IMG/VR virus record: IMGVR_UViG_3300033153_010326
Coordinates: 1 to 64,000 of that record
DNA: 64,000 bases
Source: a virus
Direction: 5' to 3' (one strand)
The stretch's first letter is position 1; every line of letters begins with the position of its first letter. Both the position numbers and the translations under genes were made by a program. The notes under the pieces are model-generated. The model worked only from the letters and a program-made list of their open reading frames with translations, searched no databases and was not told the origin of the DNA. This document shows, in pieces, positions 8,965 through 49,428 of the stretch.

Positions 8965-11900
8965 TTATGACCATGCTAGTCCTGTTGCGTGTGCTTTTAA
9001 ATGCTTGTTGTTAAATGTTTGAATTTTATATCGTATATCAGTTCCACTTCCAATACCAGTTTCAGTTAAATCTACTATTCCTGATAATATTTTTTTAGGG
9101 CTTTCAACTGTTCCTTCATTTGTTAAAGTTACTTCAGCCCAGGTTGAGCCATCATCTTTTGAAATATAAGCTTTAATATCTGTACCGATTGTAACTGCAT
9201 CTACATCTTCTTCCCATAAAACTATTCTAGCATTTTCAGGGTCTGTTACAGCAATAAAGGTTTCAGAAATCAAAGTCATATTAGTAATATCTTCAGGATT
9301 ATATAAAGCTGTTATTTCCTCTTGAGTTAGAGCTTTATTATAAATTTTTACCTCGTCTATTTTTCCTTTAAAATAATCTTGAATACCAAATCCTATTAAT
9401 AAATCTTCTGCATTATCTAAATCATAATCTGCTATTGTAAAAGTATCCGATTCTGCTACTAAAACTGCATTTACATATAATTTTAAAGTTTTACTTGTAT
9501 TATTTTTTACAGCAACTATGTGTTGTTTTCCACTATTTAATTCATAATCATAAGTAGCTACTTTACCTGTTTTCCACTCATATAAACTACCATTTAAAGC
9601 AGTTCCTTCATAAAATTTTCCATCATATACTACAGAAGACCACATGCGACTTCCATTTCCTAACTTCCCTGCTACTTCTACCCAAGCATCAGTTCCATTC
9701 CATTCATAAAGTTTACCATTATTAGCAGTTCCTCCATATAATTTTCCATTATATACAGTTAAAGAATAAATTCGACTTTCTGCTCCTAATTGAGGAGCTA
9801 CTTCTACCCAAGCACTTGTACCGTTCCACTCATAAAGTTTACCAAATAAACCAGTTCCTCCATATAATTTTCCATTATATACTGCTAAAGAATAAATATA
9901 AGCTTCTGTTCCTAACTTCCCTGCTACTTCTACCCAAGCATCAGTTCCATTCCATTCATAAAGTTTACCATTTACGTTAGTTCCTCCATAAAGTTTTCCA
10001 TTATATACTGCTAAAGAATAAATATAAGTTTCATCTCCTAATTGAGGAGCTACTTCTACCCAAGCATCAGTTCCATTCCATTCATATAAACTACCAGTTA
10101 CATTAGTTCCTCCATATAATTTTCCATTATATACAGTTAAAGGATAAATACGAGTCACTGCTCCTAATTGAGGAGCTACTTCTACCCAAGCATCAGTTCC
10201 ATTCCATTCATAAAGTTTACCATGTTCTCCAGTACTTCCATAAAGTTTTCCATTATATACTGCTAAAGAAAAAATATAAATTTCATCTCCTAACTTCCCT
10301 GCTACTTCTACCCAAGCACTTGTACCGTTCCACTCATAAAGTTTACCATTAGGATAAGTACCACCATATAATTTCCCATTATATATAGTTAAAGAATAAA
10401 TATAACTTTCATCTCCTAACTTCCCTGCTTTTGCTGTCCAAGTATTATCAGAATGATTATTATCCATTCCAAAAGAAAGTTGTCTCTGATTATAAGTATT
10501 ATTTTTTATATTTAAATTAAACCCTACTTTATTTGCTTTATCAAATTTATTTATTATATCTCCTATCACATCTGTTAAATCAGTATCAGTATCAATCCAA
10601 CATGATATACTAAATTCTCCAGTACCAAAATCTAATTCTGCATCATCAGATACTGAAATATAATCATCTAAACCATTAAAATCCAAAGCTAAACCATCAT
10701 GTCCTTCAGTACTTAAATCTTCTGTATTATCTCCTCCGTTTAAAGTTCCATTATGAGCACCTATTTCATCTATAACTGTTGTAGTAGCTAAATTATCATC
10801 CATTTTGTAATAAGCTATTAAATCACTATCATAAGAATAAGCATATATATTATCTAAATAAATAATATTTTCTTCATCTGCATTAAGAATATATAAATCT
10901 ATCCAATCAATATCATCTAAATTTATACCTGTTTCCTCACAAATATCCCAATTTATTGTTTTCCAAGTATCTACTTCTCCTGTATCTATTGTTACATCTT
11001 TAGTAATTGTAGTACCTCCAGTATCATGTATTCTTAATCTAAAATTAGTTCCTATTCTACTTGCTCTTATGTCAAATTTTATAGTATTATATGGTGATAA
11101 GTCTTTATTATTTCCTGTTCCAAAAGTTAATCTTACATAATCATTTAAAGATTCTGTTTGGTCAGCTACTATTTTAAGAGAATAACTACCTTGTTCTTTA
11201 ATCGTATCTTCTGAATAAACTTTTAAATTATAAGAAAGAATTTCCATCATTTCCATTTCTGCAATAGCTACCCAACTTGTACCACCATTTCTATCAGTTA
11301 TATGTATTCTATAATATCTATAAGCTGTAGAATTAGAAAAAATATAATCTGAAAACCAAGTATTTGTACCAGGGTCAGCTTCATCTGTTTGAATGTCCAA
11401 TGTATCCCAATCACTATCATTATTACTTCCTTGAAATGTCCAATCTCTCGGAGATTGTATTCCTGCTCCATCTCCTCTTGTTAAAAGTCGGTATTTAACA
11501 ATAATTTTTTCATTACTACTACCAAAATCATATTTTAACCATTGTGGACTGCCTCCTGTAGGAGCACTACTAGAAATCCAACACTCATCTCCACCTATAT
11601 CATCAAAAGCTTTAGAAGCAGGATAATTACCATCATATTCACTACTTGCAGTAGGAGTTCCTCCTATACATTGGTCAACAGTATAACCTCCACCACCAGG
11701 GTCTGAAGTTTCCCAAGCAGTTTGAGCATCATTATCATTGGTATATTCACAATAATCTATCTCTAAAATTTCCAATAAATCTGGTTCATAAAAATCACCA
11801 TCTGCATCATAAATTTGTCCACTACTTTCTACAGTATCTATTCCACTTTCATCATTATAAACATCTCTTACTCCATCTATCATATCATGTTCTGTCAATG

Positions 11901-19671: not shown

Positions 19672-19701
19672 TAAAAAAACCGTTCTTAATTTAAGAACGG
19701 T
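19672..19701 (-). terminator. Intrinsic terminator in the late-operon leader
   Basis: Minus strand: ACCGTTCTTA-AAT-TAAGAACGGT, a perfect 10-bp stem, then TTTTTTT. It lies downstream of the promoter at 19772-19801 and upstream of the terS RBS, so late transcription must pass it. This is the arrangement of an attenuator or antitermination-controlled operon. Confidence 0.85.
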
Positions 19702-19771
19702 AACTTGTTTATCTATATGTGTTTATATTTTTTTTAAATTATAATTTAATATATAGTTCTCTCTACTATAT

Positions 19772-19801
19772 AGTATACCACATAAACCCCTCCAAGTGCA
19801 A
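19772..19801 (-). promoter_or_regulatory. Leftward late promoter for the virion operon
   Basis: Minus strand -35 TTGCAC (19801-19796), 18-base spacer, -10 TATACT (19777-19772). The surrounding TTCACTTGCACTTG and TG-GGTATACT are shared with the promoter at 28685-28714. Bacterial sigma70 type. Confidence 0.8.
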
Positions 19802-19832
19802 GTGAATTGGGTACTTATTTTAAAATAAATAG

Positions 19833-19865
19833 AAAAAAAGGGCTAGATTTTACTCTAACCCTTTT
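19833..19865 (-). terminator. Terminator of the 28.7-19.9 kb accessory operon
   Basis: Minus strand: AAAAGGGTTAGA-GTAAAA-TCTAGCCCTTTTTTT, a 12-bp stem with one mismatch and a T tract. It lies 26 bases past the last gene of the accessory operon and just upstream of the late promoter, cleanly separating the two units. Confidence 0.88.
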
Positions 19866-22872: not shown

Positions 22873-23703
22873 TTATTTAAGCCAAAAACCTTTTCTCCTT
22901 TCTTTATTTGTTAAATCCCCCACCGTCTTAATATTTTTCTTAACTTCTTCCCATTCTCTTTCATCACAAATATCTACCATATAAATTCCATCCATAAATG
23001 TACGATTTAGCTCTTTGTAGCTCATTGTTCCATAACCTTTATTTCCCCATTGACCCCATGAATTCTTGAAAGATACTCTTTGAATATCATCATTATAAGA
23101 AACTATAACTATAGCGTGTCCCCCCATAGCTCCTTTTAATCTATCACAAAAGGTAGAATCAGGGATTCTCCCTTCCTTTTGACGTTTCCAATTACGATAT
23201 ATTTTAACTCCTATCTCTACAGGTGCTTTCACCAAACATGCTTTAAGCTCCTGCAAATTAGAAATTCGGGTATAACCTGATTCTATCTTAAAAATTTCAG
23301 CAGATTTGTCTGCTCCTTCTAAAGGTTCTCCTACTTTACCTGCAATATATTTCCAGTACTCCTCTTCACAAACTCCATTTTTCACTAATACTTTTGCGAT
23401 TGCAATTAAAGTTGTGCCTTCCTGGTGTCCTGATGCTCTTTTTGCCTTTTCGTATAAATAGCGTTCGCTCAAATCTATAAACCTACCGTAATCTATCTTC
23501 TCTTGAAATTCCTTTACGGCAATTCCAGCGAAAGAAGCACAAGCCCCCTCTGCTCCTTGATTCTTAACAGGAGACATTTGAGATGTCCAATCTACTTTTT
23601 TTGGTAATTCCTTCAATTCCTTTTGAATTAAGCTAGTACACAAATAATCTGTCGGCTTTAGTTTCGATTTATATAGTCCAAAATTAGGGTTTATATTTTT
23701 CAT
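22873..23703 (-). CDS. Papain-family (C1A-type) cysteine protease
   Basis: 276 residues with all papain landmarks: oxyanion Gln and catalytic Cys in SPVKNQGAEGACASFAG (~55), catalytic His in GGHAIVIVSYND (~205), and Asn in FKNSWGQWGNKGYG (~222). There is no clear signal peptide. Such enzymes are rare in phages. Potential roles are cleavage of a host protein or virion processing. It lies next to a 64-residue gene whose stop overlaps its start. Confidence 0.88.
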   Translation of the reverse strand: MKNINPNFGLYKSKLKPTDYLCTSLIQKELKELPKKVDWTSQMSPVKNQGAEGACASFAGIAVKEFQEKIDYGRFIDLSERYLYEKAKRASGHQEGTTLIAIAKVLVKNGVCEEEYWKYIAGKVGEPLEGADKSAEIFKIESGYTRISNLQELKACLVKAPVEIGVKIYRNWKRQKEGRIPDSTFCDRLKGAMGGHAIVIVSYNDDIQRVSFKNSWGQWGNKGYGTMSYKELNRTFMDGIYMVDICDEREWEEVKKNIKTVGDLTNKERRKGFWLK

Positions 23704-25450: not shown

Positions 25451-27181
25451 TTATTCCTCTTTTTCTTCAGGATAGTAATGTATTATTTTTCTATCTACTA
25501 TCTTTACTCCACAAGTACATCCATAACTATAATTTATTGTTACATTAACTTGAATAGGATTTTCATATCCTACTTGAGAAATAGGGTCTATTGGAAAAAT
25601 TTCCCAAGAAGTCTTAATCATTATTTTATTACATTTTGGACATTTATATATCTTTGTCTCTGATTTTTTGTTATCATCAATTATTTTCTTTTTAATATCA
25701 GAATGGTCAAGCAAATATACAAGAGCTTGTTTAAATGCTGAAAGTTTTTGACATTGATTTTCGTAAGTAAAACTTGCTTTATTTTCAAATCCGTCTTTGC
25801 AATGAATATCCTTTACTAAAATAGCAGAACCTATTCCATTATGACAACAAATACTAAGCCAATAAGGATGACGATAATGAGTAATTTCCTGCATTATATT
25901 ATCTGCTTCCTCATCCCAACAAGTAACTTTATCAATCCTTGCTCTAAGTTCATCATACTTATCCACTTTAACCTCCTCTTTAACTTTACAATCTAATACA
26001 TCCAAATGCTTTTCTTCTATTTTATAACCTTCTAACAGGCTCTTTAATACCTTTACCATATTCTCTTCAGCAGTAATAGCTTCTTCTTTGGTATTTGCTT
26101 GTTGAATTTTTTTCCAAGCCGAACCCTCTTTATCGCATTTTTGATTTGCTATCTTAAGTGGACATTTTTGGCAATCTAGGTTTTTTTCTCCACCAAAGTT
26201 AAAACATAAAGCACAATCTACAGCTTGATAACTTATTATTTTTTCACCAATAAGGAAATATTTTACCCCACAGTCAGAAATAAATTTTCCTTTTAAAGTT
26301 TTTAATTTATGTAAATTATCCTCATGATGAATAATACTATCTATAATTGCTTTAGTAGTTGATTCATCATATTTTGGTGTAGTGTTAGGGATTTTTTTAA
26401 GATATTCAGTTGTTAAAGTAGAACACCAACCTTCGTTTTCTTTATTTTGAAAACATAAGGCATTAGTATCGGAATATTTTTTTCTTAAAATACCTTTTTT
26501 CCCTATATAACAACTTTTACAACGACCTCTAAAGTGACATTTAGGTAATTTAATTATTTCTACAGGGTCTCCTTCTTTAAACTCTTCTTCTATCTTTTTT
26601 AAACCATTAATACCTATTAAAATTTCTGCTCTTCTATCTTCTAATCGTACAAGAGCTATTGAAGGATTATGGTAAGGACTTCTTAAGTGTGGAGCTATTT
26701 TTACAATATGACCAGTTTCTCCATTTATAGCTCTTTCTCCATCTATCCAATCTTTTGCTCCCATAGATTTCGCCTGTTCAATATACTGAAAATATCCCGC
26801 TCCTTTGTTAATTATTTCAACTCTATCTCCTACCTTTAAATTCTCCATACAATCCTCCATAATTATTTTTTTTTCATGTATATTACCAATAATTTTAGCA
26901 TGTTTAAATTTAATATTATAAACTCCTAAACTTCTAATATCTAATATAGCTACTTTTAAATTTTCTCCTCCATCTATACTTATTTCTAATATATCCCCTT
27001 CATATATATCCGTTCCATCTCTATCCTGCTTTCCAATATATTGCCCTACCGTAATTACTTGAACTTCATATTGTTCTTTATTCTTATCAAAAATTAAAGG
27101 ATAATCTCTACCTTGTAATAAATCCCCATAAGCCCATTTACAACCATATATACATAATCCTCTAAATTTATTTTCTCTCAT
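25451..27181 (-). CDS. YopX-domain multidomain fusion protein
   Basis: 576 residues. Residues 1-90 match the phage YopX pattern (MRENKFRG...GQYIGKQDRDGTDIYEGDIL). A KOW/SH3-like segment follows (LKVGDRVEIINKGAGYF, EFKEGDPVEIIKL), then several Cys clusters (CHFRGRCKSC; CALCFNFGGEKNLDCQKCPL), a helical part, and a final zinc ribbon (CPKCNKIM...CTCG). YopX proteins are usually ~120-150 residues, so this is a large fusion. An internal ATG near 26868 could also start the non-YopX part. Function unknown. Confidence 0.65.
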   Translation of the reverse strand: MRENKFRGLCIYGCKWAYGDLLQGRDYPLIFDKNKEQYEVQVITVGQYIGKQDRDGTDIYEGDILEISIDGGENLKVAILDIRSLGVYNIKFKHAKIIGNIHEKKIIMEDCMENLKVGDRVEIINKGAGYFQYIEQAKSMGAKDWIDGERAINGETGHIVKIAPHLRSPYHNPSIALVRLEDRRAEILIGINGLKKIEEEFKEGDPVEIIKLPKCHFRGRCKSCYIGKKGILRKKYSDTNALCFQNKENEGWCSTLTTEYLKKIPNTTPKYDESTTKAIIDSIIHHEDNLHKLKTLKGKFISDCGVKYFLIGEKIISYQAVDCALCFNFGGEKNLDCQKCPLKIANQKCDKEGSAWKKIQQANTKEEAITAEENMVKVLKSLLEGYKIEEKHLDVLDCKVKEEVKVDKYDELRARIDKVTCWDEEADNIMQEITHYRHPYWLSICCHNGIGSAILVKDIHCKDGFENKASFTYENQCQKLSAFKQALVYLLDHSDIKKKIIDDNKKSETKIYKCPKCNKIMIKTSWEIFPIDPISQVGYENPIQVNVTINYSYGCTCGVKIVDRKIIHYYPEEKEE

Positions 27182-28232: not shown

Positions 28233-28322
28233 TTATTTTTGTAACTCCTTTTCCTCTTTCATTTTTTTAATAAGTTTAGATAATCATATAAGTTCTTCAT
28301 GAACCTGTTTTTTTAATTTCAC
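28233..28322 (-). pseudogene. Small coiled-coil gene interrupted by an in-frame TGA
   Basis: A GTG start with AAAAGGAG RBS opens VKLKKQVHEELI, then TGA (28284-28286), then the same frame continues LSKLIKKMKEEKELQK to TAA. The heptad-like pattern runs through the stop, so this looks like a small gene hit by nonsense mutation, or read through. The next ~140 bases upstream contain further broken small frames. Confidence 0.45.
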
Positions 28323-28466
28323 TATTATCTCCTTTTAAAATCTTTTTTGAGTAAGCCAACTTCTGCTAAAACATCTCTTTGTAATCATATATATATAATC
28401 AACTATAGTCACTTTCTACGAAAAAGTGGCTTAAACTGATTTTATTCCTCCTTACTTTAAATTATT

Positions 28467-28680
28467 GCTAATAGGTTCTTACCTAGAAACGTCTTTCTAG
28501 GTTAGTAACATCCCTATTCGCTAACGGATTCATTATCAAATCTTCAGGTATACCTGACGTTACACGACTAATAATGAAGGGCTTCCATATTGTCAAAGAG
28601 AAGATGGAGAGGGTTTTTAACGATTTATGAGAACTTTCAGCTCAGTTGCACTCTCCATAGTTATCATCTTCTTCTCTATA
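28467..28680 (-). ncRNA. Structured leader RNA of the leftward accessory operon
   Basis: Starting right after the promoter at 28685-28714, the minus-strand transcript can form three stacked domains. A: AGAGAAG-AAGATG...GGAGAG with CTCTCC-ATCTTCTCT (28595-28677). B: TTCATTATTA with TGATAATGAA (28529-28578) enclosing the palindrome CAGGTATACCTG. C: GC-AATAGG with CCTATT-GC (28467-28521) enclosing ACCTAGAAA-GACG-TTTCTAGGT. Thirteen bases later comes AAGGAGG without a normal start codon. It does not match a riboswitch or T-box I know. Confidence 0.6.
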
Positions 28681-28684
28681 ATTA

Positions 28685-28714
28685 AGTATACACTACAAAG
28701 TCCTTCAAGTGCAA
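28685..28714 (-). promoter_or_regulatory. Leftward promoter of the accessory operon
   Basis: Minus strand TTGCAC (28714-28709), 18 bases, TATACT (28690-28685), inside the conserved block TTCACTTGCACTTGAAGG. Nearly the same as the late promoter at 19772-19801. Confidence 0.8.
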
Positions 28715-29122
28715 GTGAATAGGGTATTTATTTTTAAATCCCTTAAAAAGCCCTTATATCGCATTTCGACACAAATCCCCTAACTAACCCCCTATCCCTT
28801 TCTAACTCTTTACCTACCCCCTTATCTGCTCCCTTAAACCCTATTCCTACCCTTACCCCTAACCTCTATATACCCCTTCCAATTAGTCCAGTATACTTGA
28901 TTAACCAAAATGTTAATTAGCTGTATTTACCCTCACAATAAATATGCTCCAAACCAACTCCTGATTAAGTTATCTCACTCCTAATATCTCCCTTATTAAA
29001 ATATGTTAAATAAAACCCTTCAATATCATACATAAACTTGTATAAATCCATACATATCTTTGTATACTTTATATATCCTATTACTAATGAATTACTAGTA
29101 TCTACTAATTTAGTAATATAAG

Positions 29123-29153
29123 TTTAGACATTAATCTAGACAATATGTCTAAA
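29123..29153. repeat. Inverted repeat TTTAGACAT/ATGTCTAAA
   Basis: Perfect 9-bp arms around a 13-base spacer. The GACAT core recurs in the adjacent repeat 25 bases on, so both may bind the same dimeric protein. Confidence 0.7.
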
Positions 29154-29177
29154 TTTTATTAATTTATATTTAATAAA

Positions 29178-29206
29178 AGTTGACATCTATCAAGCAAATG
29201 TCAACT
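29178..29206. repeat. Inverted repeat AGTTGACAT/ATGTCAACT
   Basis: Perfect 9-bp arms around an 11-base spacer, second of a pair sharing the GACAT core. Candidate operator or origin hairpin. Confidence 0.7.
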
Positions 29207-30054
29207 ATAAGTTCGATTTTTATTATTAATTGATTAATTCATAAGTCCTTCATTCATCAGCATTTATGATTAAAGTCAGGCATTTGTTGTGATTTGGGGC
29301 GAAAAAGTGCTAAAATAGGGGTACTTATTGGGTGAAAAGGGGTGCTAATGCTAAGTTTAAGGGTCAATAGGAGGCTGTAAACCCTATAAAAAGGTAGTTG
29401 CTAATTAAGACCCTATACCCTTTATTGTTGTAAGTCCTTATGATATAACGATAGGCGTTATCAATAATAGATGATTATAGATATAGGTTTAATAAAGTGA
29501 TAATATTTGATTAAAAATTCAGGTCTTTTTTTTATTATAACTCATTACATTATAATAACTTACATCAATTAATTAATTAATTCATAACTCGTTATATTAC
29601 AACCATTTATAATTTAATCATCACAAATTGCTTATTTATACTAGTCTTATTTAATTAGCTTACTATTGTATTATTATTAAGCTTGTATTTAATTATTAAC
29701 ATAGTGATTATAGCATTATTTAATGAGGTATTAGCATATTATTATGATATATTTAGGGTATTATTTTAGTATTATTTACAAGAGTATTGTGGCTTTATTA
29801 GTTTATTATTTATAAAGTATCTATGGAGTTATAGTATTGTTATTATGAGCTTATTATAGTATAAAGAGTTTATAGTCTTATGGTCTTATTATGGTATTAT
29901 AATGGGCTTATTGGGATAGGTTTAAGGGGTAATTTAAGGCTTTGTTACATGGTAAGGTATAAGATGATTGATTACTGATTAAGAGCTTGTAAGGGGCTAT
30001 TAGATGGGTATTGTATAAGGTAATTGTTAATAATACAAAAAATAGATTTAGGGC

Positions 30055-32429: not shown

Positions 32430-32744
32430 ATGTATAGTTTACAATACATCAACGCAATCAATACCGAAAAAACACAAGAAGCTAAAAAAGCAAAACTACA
32501 ACCTTTTATTGCTGAAGTTGATGGAGATATTAGGGTAAACTATTGTCCGTTTTTAGCTAATTATTTGCCTGAGGGGTATGAAATAGTTAATACCTTTTTT
32601 GTAGATAGTTCGGGCCTTGGAAGAGAAAACGAATTAGCTTTAACTTTTAAACAATTTTTAACAAAAGTTAAAAGGGGTTTTGGCTATGCAATAGCGGAGG
32701 CTGGGCAATTTCAGCTTTACATTAACGAGTATAAAAAGATATAA
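32430..32744 (+). CDS. Unknown early protein
   Basis: 104 residues from the ATG at 32430, which follows TTGGAGGTGATATTT; an in-frame ATG at 32415 is too close to the RBS. Mixed fold (YSLQYINAINTEKTQEAKKA; GFGYAIAEAGQFQLYINEYK). It resembles small phage proteins where an Ala/Gly C-terminus follows a GRENEL motif. Followed by a hairpin. Confidence 0.65.
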   Translation: MYSLQYINAINTEKTQEAKKAKLQPFIAEVDGDIRVNYCPFLANYLPEGYEIVNTFFVDSSGLGRENELALTFKQFLTKVKRGFGYAIAEAGQFQLYINEYKKI

Positions 32745-32748
32745 ATTT

Positions 32749-32770
32749 AAAGGGGCAATTTTGCCCCTTT
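32749..32770 (+). terminator. Hairpin AAAGGGGCAA/TTGCCCCTTT
   Basis: Perfect 10-bp stem right after the stop at 32744. The T tract is short (CCCCTTTGC), so it may be a weak terminator or RNA-stability element. Confidence 0.65.
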
Positions 32771-32800
32771 GCAATTATCTTATTACAGAGGTATTATACC

Positions 32801-32866
32801 ATGAAAAGTATAATAGTTTTGATTATTATAGGTATTATAATCTATTGTTATGTAAAGAGGTTATAA
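32801..32866 (+). CDS. 21-residue membrane peptide
   Basis: MKSIIVLIIIGIIIYCYVKR plus one residue; almost entirely a membrane helix. RBS GAGG eight bases upstream. Too short to judge by coding statistics. Confidence 0.4.
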   Translation: MKSIIVLIIIGIIIYCYVKRL

Positions 32867-39888: not shown

Positions 39889-41003
39889 TGTATGTATTAG
39901 GATTATTTGGTATTATGTTTTTAATTTGGTTTTTTGGATTTTATAAATCTTCTGATAATACAGAAGGAAGTATACAAATAACTTCTGTAACAGATGAAGA
40001 AGCGATTAATCATATAAACGCTTCAAAAGATGAAGCGTTAAAAGTAGAAATTAAAGATAGTAAATTTGACCATACTAGAATTATACCCTATGAAGGAGAA
40101 ACTATAAATCAATTTGAATTTAGACCTCAAACATGGGAACAGTTTATAGGTCAAGAAGAAGCTAAAGCTAGAGCCAAAACTATTATAAAGAAAGTGAAGA
40201 AGAATATTAGAGGACATTTAATTTTAAGTGCTATCAAAGGACATGGTAAAACTACCTTCATAGAACTTTTAGCTAAGAGTATGAGAGCTAGATTGATTAA
40301 AAGGATAGGCAAGCAATTAAATGAAGATAGTTTAATTGATATAATAAACGAAATAAACTCTTGTCCTGAAAAAGAGGTAATATTTTTTATAGATGAAATA
40401 GATACTATGGATTGGAAAATTTTAAAGATTTTAAATCCTATTATAGAACAGTTTGAAATTAATGGAAAGAAAATAAAGCCCTTTGTATTTGCAAGTGCAA
40501 CCATTAACAAGCATACTTTAATTAAAAATAATCCCGATACGCTTGACCGAATTCCACATCATATTCAATTTCATAGATACACTGCTAACGATATAAGTAA
40601 AATTATAACTCAATATAAAAATCATTTATATACTGATGAAAATATCCCTAAAGAAGCTATTGAAGTTATTTCTCATTCTTGTAAATTTAATCCTAGAACT
40701 GCTATAGCATTATTAGAAGATTATATTATAGAAAGAAATATGAATATAGTTTTAAAGAATAATAAGATTATAAGGAATGGTTTAAATGATATTGATATAT
40801 CTGTCCTAAAAATATTAAACAACTCTACAAGGGCTATAGGGGCGAATTCTTTGGCTATGCAAGTAGGTCTATCACAAAATCAATACATAAGAGAATTTGA
40901 ACCTTTTTTAGTAGAATTTGGATATATTGCTCGTATTCCGTCAAGAATAATAACACAACTGGGAAGAATAACATTGGAGAAATTAAATGATAAAATTAAC
41001 TAA
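39888..41003 (+). CDS. Membrane-anchored RuvB-like AAA+ ATPase
   Basis: 371 residues from the ATG at 39888 (RBS AAGGAGA). Residues 1-20 (MYVLGLFGIMFLIWFFGFYK) are an N-terminal membrane anchor. The ATPase follows RuvB order: RPQTWEQFIGQEEAK, Walker A AIKGHGKTT, Walker B VIFFIDEIDTMD, sensor 1 VFASATIN, and sensor 2 FNPRTAIALLED. A C-terminal winged helix has the RuvB-like LAMQVGLSQNQYIREFEPFL...RIPSRIITQLGR. RuvB normally drives Holliday junction branch migration and is soluble; anchoring to the membrane is odd. A RuvC-like gene lies at 58954 but no RuvA was seen. Confidence 0.78.
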   Translation: MYVLGLFGIMFLIWFFGFYKSSDNTEGSIQITSVTDEEAINHINASKDEALKVEIKDSKFDHTRIIPYEGETINQFEFRPQTWEQFIGQEEAKARAKTIIKKVKKNIRGHLILSAIKGHGKTTFIELLAKSMRARLIKRIGKQLNEDSLIDIINEINSCPEKEVIFFIDEIDTMDWKILKILNPIIEQFEINGKKIKPFVFASATINKHTLIKNNPDTLDRIPHHIQFHRYTANDISKIITQYKNHLYTDENIPKEAIEVISHSCKFNPRTAIALLEDYIIERNMNIVLKNNKIIRNGLNDIDISVLKILNNSTRAIGANSLAMQVGLSQNQYIREFEPFLVEFGYIARIPSRIITQLGRITLEKLNDKIN

Positions 41004-44171: not shown

Positions 44172-44201
44172 TTGCACTTGAACTAGATTGTATGGTATAC
44201 T
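44172..44201 (+). promoter_or_regulatory. Rightward promoter of the replication region
   Basis: TTGCAC, 18 bases, TATACT inside TACTTGCACTTGAA...ATGGTATACT. Same core as the two leftward promoters, now pointing right. Confidence 0.8.
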
Positions 44202-48602: not shown

Positions 48603-49428
48603 AGTTATTATAGTTGACTATTCTATATTTATGTTTAGGGCTATATTTGCAGGGAGAAAAAATAAACAAATGACACCTACTTATAATTGTGTTAATATGA
48701 TAGTCTCATGTTTAAGAAAAATAGGAGTAGAACCTACAGATAAAATTATACTTGCTTGTGATTATGGAAGGTCATGGAGAAAAGAACTTTCTAAAGAATA
48801 TAAAGCTGATAGAGAGAAAAAAAGAAAACAATATAAAGATATTGATTGGGATAAAAGATTCAAAGAATTTAATCAGTTAATAGAAGATTTAGATAAAAGT
48901 ACAAGTTGGTTAGTGGTAAAAGAATGGAGTTTTGAATTTGATGATTTTGCGAGTGTTGCTCCAAGATATTTTAAAAATAATGAGATTATCATTATTTCTT
49001 ATGATAAGGATATGGAGCAACTTTGTAGTTATCCTAATGTAAAATTGTTTTCTCCTTTGATAAAATACAAAGGAAAAAAAGGAGCTTATAAATTAGTTGA
49101 AGACCCTTATAAAGTATTAGCTGATAAAATTGAAAAAGAAGCTTCTGATAATTTAAAAAGTAAAATTGTTACGACTAAAGACTATGAATTAAGAGAAACT
49201 TTAGTTTCATTATTAAAACTACCAAGACATATTGAAGAAAAGATTGTAGAAATTTATTCTAATTTAAAAGAAAAACAATATATAGATAAAGATAGAATTC
49301 CATTTAAAAAAGATTTAAAAAAAAGAATTATTAATTTATATAATGATAAAAAGAATATTGTAGATTATGAGGAATGTATTGAATATATTGCTAAAAAAAG
49401 AAAAGGAAAAAAGAAATGCAAAAAATAA
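48589..49428 (+). CDS. 5'-3' exonuclease (FEN/T4 RNase H-like)
   Basis: About 279 residues from GTG 48589 (AAAGGAAAAG RBS); an ATG at 48565 is an alternative. VIIVDYSIFMFRAIFA opens the PIN-like fold, ACDYGRSWRKELSKEYKADR gives the helical arch base, EFDDFASVAP and IISYDKDMEQL supply further metal-binding acids. The C-terminus is helical and basic. Removes RNA primers or flaps in phage replication. Confidence 0.85.
   Translation: MERNKVIIVDYSIFMFRAIFAGRKNKQMTPTYNCVNMIVSCLRKIGVEPTDKIILACDYGRSWRKELSKEYKADREKKRKQYKDIDWDKRFKEFNQLIEDLDKSTSWLVVKEWSFEFDDFASVAPRYFKNNEIIIISYDKDMEQLCSYPNVKLFSPLIKYKGKKGAYKLVEDPYKVLADKIEKEASDNLKSKIVTTKDYELRETLVSLLKLPRHIEEKIVEIYSNLKEKQYIDKDRIPFKKDLKKRIINLYNDKKNIVDYEECIEYIAKKRKGKKKCKK

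Follow-up and report, generated by a model that had tools for sequence, protein, structure and literature searches.

In Bacillus subtilis long downstream regions can be stabilised by a hairpin, a ribosome binding site or a bound protein located at the 5' end of the transcript or close to it, and RppH of this organism requires at least two unpaired 5' nucleotides (both from passages of the review PMC3997798). Leaders of this 5'-helix type slow the 5'-end-dependent decay, most strikingly in Bacilli (excerpts of PMC3997798 and PMC4113751), and the Shine-Dalgarno-like leader sequence STAB-SD stabilises mRNA without directing translation (excerpt of PMC4113751). A second kind of leader RNA is represented by putL and putR of phage HK022, which have a demonstrated effect on the polymerase. 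Here we describe the leader of a leftward operon in a 64,000-nucleotide stretch of viral DNA, in the following referred to as the window (positions 1 to 64,000 of the IMG/VR virus record IMGVR_UViG_3300033153_010326, which comprises 104,368 bases). Its first part, domain 1 (28681-28594, minus strand), is a new, presumably cis-acting phage leader RNA that is filed under no existing family.

Like putL and putR, domain 1 is a phage RNA of similar size which is located directly after an operon promoter and presumably acts in cis, whereas put RNA consists of two stem-loops and domain 1, known here from its sequence, of one nested hairpin. The stabilisers of Bacilli (the aprE leader stem-loop and the cry3A STAB-SD) resemble the window leader in the hairpin at the (here predicted) 5' end and perhaps in an untranslated ribosome-binding sequence. 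However, they act on single bacterial genes, while domain 1 belongs to a phage, shows covariation and has an internal loop that is conserved in part; of the leaders compared, only the longer one of the window contains the orphan AAGGAGG.

Conservation and covariation of domain 1

Domain 1 is about 80 nucleotides long and consists of a closing helix P1 (6-7 base pairs), a 5'-side bulge, helix P2, an internal loop and the short hairpin P3. According to the sequence and the predicted transcription start, the 5' strand of P1 in the window (AGAGAAG, 28671-28677; all positions in domain 1 refer to the minus strand) begins at about +2. It pairs with CUUCUCU (28597-28603), a strand assigned from sequence, fold and double changes relative to the related phage loci L008 and L061. 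In both of these P1 begins at the predicted +1, and thus lies within two nucleotides of the predicted start in all three phages. The bulge of about 12-13 nucleotides (28658-28670, from alignment and covariance-model match) contains AGAUGAUAA in the window and a closely similar sequence in L008, while L061 has a small hairpin there. Based on sequence, fold and pair counts P2 is formed by UGGAGAG (28651-28657) and CUCUCCA (28605-28611), comprising seven base pairs in the window and four to five in L008 and L061. P3 (28628-28644, from alignments and pair counts) is a hairpin of four base pairs, UGAG/CUCA, with the loop CUGAAAGUU, in which the window shares UGnAnGU with L008 and L061. The remaining internal loop (UGAGAAC; AAAACUAnUACUAnU) differs little between L008 and L061, and only part of it is retained in the window.

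The leaders of L008 (1326-1407) and L061 (3401-3490) share 61 of 90 aligned columns over the approximately 85 nucleotides directly following the promoter, and the proteins of these phages are 39-65% identical. A covariance model (R1) with 14 base pairs was built from these two leaders only, excluding the window, and was searched against 64 of 104 sources (window and loci; 952,569 bases), the others being mostly duplicates, pattern hits and distant protease-only contigs. R1 ranked L061 and L008 first, followed by the window, which was matched at 28681-28594 (minus strand) with 32.4 bits and an E-value of 2.6e-5, rough as the calibration makes all E-values of this model; the next match scored 18.5 bits. 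L008 was not chosen blindly, since the first 20 leader bases of the window resembled it by eye; L061 was obtained via a protein search. A model of the same alignment that scores sequence only listed L061 and L008, but not the window at E-values up to 10, which indicates that the base pairing carries the match to the window. In a separate R1 search of 20 records, L008 (G004) and L061 (G015) were matched besides a noise-level hit to G011 (E 0.785). This search was less sensitive, leaving the own record of the window unreported although cmsearch finds it.

In the model-fitted alignment of the three sequences 42 of 42 cells are paired and half of the 14 pairs are changed on both sides (two of six in P1, two of four in P2, three of four in P3). 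Slid controls of the same alignment, which leans towards structure, reach 45-62% paired cells and at most one double-changed pair. The structure-free MAFFT alignment of L008 and L061 has 28 of 28 cells paired and three double changes, compared to none in every slid control. However, 73 of 500 shuffles reach this result, and two sequences alone are thus weak evidence. With all three sequences in the MAFFT alignment, P1 retains 18 of 18 paired cells and two double changes, which 43 of 500 shuffles reach, while P2 and P3 are out of register, so that their support in the window comes from the model alignment. Covariation in homologues, the check proposed along with an earlier sequence-only reading of this locus, is present for domain 1, as indicated by both the R1 match and the pair counts.

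Taken together, domain 1 is very probably a real RNA element. Sequence comparison places it in at least three uncultured phages that are related to one another and keep its shape but not its letters, i.e. the leader maintains an RNA structure where a sequence-only comparison fails. No Rfam 15 family was matched in the window, and permissive searches of the window, L008 and L061 leaders gave matches below the gathering score only. The L061 leader matched the phage-associated GP20-a RNA at chance level (14 bits, E 3.5). This RNA (RF02991), which is of cis-regulatory type according to Rfam, has a different architecture and a gathering score of 47.2, far above the score of L061. A paper naming the element was not detected in literature listings and the beginnings of abstracts, which is no proof of its absence. 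Domain 1 therefore represents a covariation-supported RNA without Rfam 15 match at the very start of a predicted phage operon transcript. For the window leader an origin from tRNA or tmRNA was rejected; domain 1 gave no tRNA match at E-values up to 10.

Promoter, fold and end of the window leader

The leader is preceded by a -10 element TATACT (28685-28690, minus strand), which aligns with the promoters of the relatives and predicts a start at about 28678, and by the -35-like TTGCAC (28709-28714). The layout ACTTGCACTTG...TATACT also precedes the small-terminase gene (19777, minus strand) and recurs in similar form at 44196 and 52526 (both plus strand), and the relatives carry TTGACA-N17/18-TATACT in front of the matching operons. 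Based on this recurrence and these counterparts the promoter was taken as real and as belonging to a phage promoter class. The sequence-only reading had called it strong. This has to be qualified, given that TTGCAC agrees with the sigma-70 consensus in only three of six positions and that the promoter is absent from the list of the consensus scan. The four sites of this putatively phage-specific class, at 28690 and 19777 (minus strand) and at 44196 and 52526 (plus strand), have ACTTGCAC(T/A)TG upstream of TATACT and TTGCAC about 18 nucleotides before it.

The same reading had described an elaborate RNA of at least three domains at 28467-28680. Its coordinates proved correct, with the RNA on the minus strand: about 215 nucleotides right after the promoter fold into three domains in the minimum-energy fold of 28690-28440. 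This fold of 251 nucleotides has an energy of -56.2 kcal/mol (z-score -2.33; 4 of 200 shuffles as good), and the 219-nucleotide leader alone (28680-28462) has a z-score of -2.78, a level that none of 200 shuffles attained. When the domains were assessed one by one, only domain 3 was clearly more stable than its shuffles (z-score -3.35, p 0.004; domain 1: -1.75, p 0.064; domain 2: -1.30, p 0.10). A folding-energy scan was rejected as proof, because 44 of the 1598 windows of both strands rank above the best 120-nucleotide window of the leader (rank 45 by energy excess), and energy alone would not pick out the leader. The plus strand of the region folds about equally well (z-score -2.68). Four other segments, at 32721-32840 and 39921-40040 and, on the minus strand, at 26401-26520 and 48961-49080, fold much better than shuffles and exceed the leader.

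Domain 2 (28527-28588, minus strand) is a long imperfect hairpin containing the palindrome TCAGGTATACCTGA (28557-28544), whereas domain 3 (28467-28522, minus strand) is formed by GCGAATAGG/CCTATTAGC with the inner stem ACCTAGAAA/TTTCTAGGT. A BLAST search of the leader revealed no homologue of either domain in the loci searched, and both were seen in this phage only; their support therefore comes from folding. Domains 2 and 3 are possibly chance hairpins or DNA operator sites.

The AAGGAGG at 28453-28447 (minus strand) was said to lack a usual start codon, and it is indeed one of 8 among the 26 such sites in the window without ATG, GTG or TTG 3-12 nucleotides downstream. The other 18 precede a start codon, compared to 31% of random sites. 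ATC follows after six nucleotides and may act as a non-standard start. The small frames downstream hold in-frame stops, and no gene was therefore assigned to the site. The stretch right after the leader (28250-28440, minus strand) contains short frames that resemble protein-coding sequence and have good ribosome binding sites but also in-frame stops; they may represent decayed small genes. The terminator scan did not detect an intrinsic terminator at the end of the leader, and there is no second copy of the leader within the own record of the window.

Possible roles of domain 1

The position of the RNA at the 5' end of a leftward operon, as proposed previously, is supported, and the element probably protects or steers the message that it starts. 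We tentatively favour, as a plausible though uncertain reading, that domain 1 acts in cis and blocks the 5'-end-dependent decay of its transcript. The operon transcript would then start as a structured leader, and domain 1 would work on its own transcript. As P1 begins at about +1 or +2, the 5' end is expected to be base-paired, which would make it a poor substrate for the pyrophosphohydrolase and for 5'-end-dependent nucleases. In the window only, domains 2 and 3 and the orphan AAGGAGG may strengthen this barrier, and AAGGAGG could bind the 30S subunit without starting translation. If this is true, domain 1 would serve long operons as a compact 5' cap.

Several observations weigh against such a stabiliser. 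The counts are based on three sequences, and these were in view when the structure was chosen. By itself, domain 1 shows no unusual stability, and L008 folds freely without P2. The start site is a predicted one, and the decay enzymes would depend on the host. An orphan AAGGAGG of this kind was observed in neither L008 nor L061. Moreover, domain 1 is carried by only three of the 11 phages (window included) that are readable from the first leftward-type promoter, as judged by reading, to the first genes, which suggests that it is dispensable or replaceable. Finally, the unpaired letters common to L008 and L061 (UGAGAAC, the P3 loop and AAAACUAnUACUAnU) go beyond the needs of a plain end-cap, hinting at a specific partner.

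Such a partner might be the polymerase itself. By analogy with HK022 putL, whose size and place domain 1 matches (available part of PMC9378689), the nascent RNA might bind the polymerase that made it and let it pass pauses and terminators. The unpaired letters conserved between L008 and L061 are in agreement with this, and so are the terminators that separate the leader operon from the structural operon in the window (19865-19836 and 19701-19679), L008 (3640-3675) and L061 (7165-7192 and 7384-7406), since a modified polymerase would read on through them into the structural genes. However, the scan of the window revealed no clear terminator between the leader and the genes that follow it in the same operon, the first one downstream in the scanned stretch being that at 19836-19865 (minus strand). 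Furthermore, the structural operon is served by a promoter of its own, one nested hairpin stands against the two stem-loops of putRNA, and the window retains only some of the conserved unpaired letters. A put-like role is therefore rather doubtful. It seems likewise unlikely that a protein-independent RNA reprograms the polymerase in large non-lambdoid phages, such that the polymerase from this promoter alone would run through two terminators into the structural genes; if it did, RNA-only antitermination would extend beyond the HK022-type phages.

A specific partner could also be a protein or a ligand that switches translation or elongation of the operon through the leader as an operator or riboswitch. 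The core conserved between L008 and L061 would fit, as would L061 itself, where the ribosome binding site of the first small open reading frame (ORF) directly follows P1. On the other hand, the first gene after the leader differs between the members: a small ORF seen in L008 and L061 was not found in the window, and the small ORFs following in L008 and the window are others than the one next to P1 in L061. In addition, the leader showed neither an alternative terminator nor an anti-Shine-Dalgarno stem excluding P1, the window differs in the core letters and no Rfam family was matched, and thus we consider a controlled leader improbable. Of the earlier proposal of a "new riboswitch-like or ornate phage RNA", the new structured leader RNA is retained for domain 1 on the basis of its covariation and of the lack of an Rfam match. 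The riboswitch-like character is not: the unpaired bases common to L008 and L061 are only partly present in the window, unlike a ligand pocket, and neither the strongly conserved core letters nor the expression platform typical of riboswitches was found, as the core differs in the window and no terminator occurs in the leader.

The sequence-only reading had also considered a stable non-coding RNA processed from the leader. Such an RNA, cut from the leader or ending within it, would act in trans. The leaders or operon starts of relatives hold real or altered tRNAs (seven in L061, four in L035 and L058, and a tRNA-like RNA in L039), suggesting that structured RNAs are made at this place. Since no terminator ends the leader and no second copy exists in the own record, such a product is still more improbable than control by a partner. 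Chance hairpins or DNA operator sites without any RNA function would agree with the modest folding scores and with the perfect DNA palindrome in domain 2, but the covariation of domain 1 and its structure-dependent model match make this explanation very improbable indeed, and the protection of the 5' end remains the reading that we tentatively prefer.

Related phages and genomic context

The related virus records were obtained by searches with the terminase, the MCP-like protein and the papain-family protease, L061 by the last viral scan with the protease. The names terminase and portal-like are our reading of a weak PHROG hit, gene order and size. The terminase and portal-like proteins of the record had no tblastn match among 50,697 phage records, in which a search with the DNA of the leader region revealed no close relative either; the record is thus far from named phages. 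Scans with YopX-like, RecA-like and primase queries and an MCP-like alignment scan of genome contigs detected no relatives. The group has few recognisable proteins. The 11 readable phages comprise the window, G001 (L005), G002 (L006), G004 (L008), G007 (L011), G009 (L035), G010 (L036), G012 (L037), G013 (L038), G014 (L039) and G015 (L061), with L058 being identical to L035 over 4 kb. In the other related records the stretch from promoter to first gene is missing or was not located.

The leaders of L005 and L035 were rejected as members by a three-member model with the filters off; they form other hairpins, with helices starting at +13 and +21. By reading, no such structure was observed before the first ORF in L006, L011, L036 and L037, and L038 has only a small hairpin. 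The leader of L039 begins at the predicted +1 with a tRNA-like RNA. This RNA (11212-11278, minus strand) resembles tRNA-Gly(UCC), the anticodon being our own reading, has a reduced T arm and an acceptor stem from the predicted first transcribed base, and scored 38.4 bits against Rfam tRNA when searched alone. Phage tRNA arrays, which domain 1 itself does not resemble, occur in or beside the corresponding operon start of L061 and L035: the stretch from the operon leader to the papain protease gene holds seven tRNA genes in L061 (3620-4144) and four in L058 (1930-2231; the same in L035).

A pattern of promoter plus GATGATAA matched 17 viral stretches, including the known L008 record. Among the other 16 a suitably spaced complementary 6-mer occurs only in L056, and R1, applied to all 17, accepted the L008 record only. 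Two genome-contig matches to the core pattern were rejected as well, since neither was matched by the covariance model.

The operon gene common to the window, L008 and L061 encodes a papain-family cysteine protease (approximately 22873-23703 in the window, minus strand; Pfam Peptidase_C1, E 1.4e-18). In front of the structural operon an attenuator-like layout was observed, in which the small-terminase promoter region is followed by an intrinsic terminator within about 80-110 nucleotides (window 19679-19802, minus strand; L008 3702-3830; L009 860-990; L010 1-120), with a short peptide frame first in L008 and L010.

The genes of the window are directed leftward up to about 28.2 kb and rightward from 30.1 kb, and the GC skew changes its sign near 29.2 kb; the leader is accordingly located in a long divergent intergenic region. 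Around this skew flip, at 28700-29950, G-rich tracts point outward on both sides, which may indicate a replication origin. In two relatives, large terminase frames of 932 and 1007 amino acids (L010 1078-3876 and L012 9347-12370) carry insertions inside the homologous region, which may represent intein-like or similar inserts.
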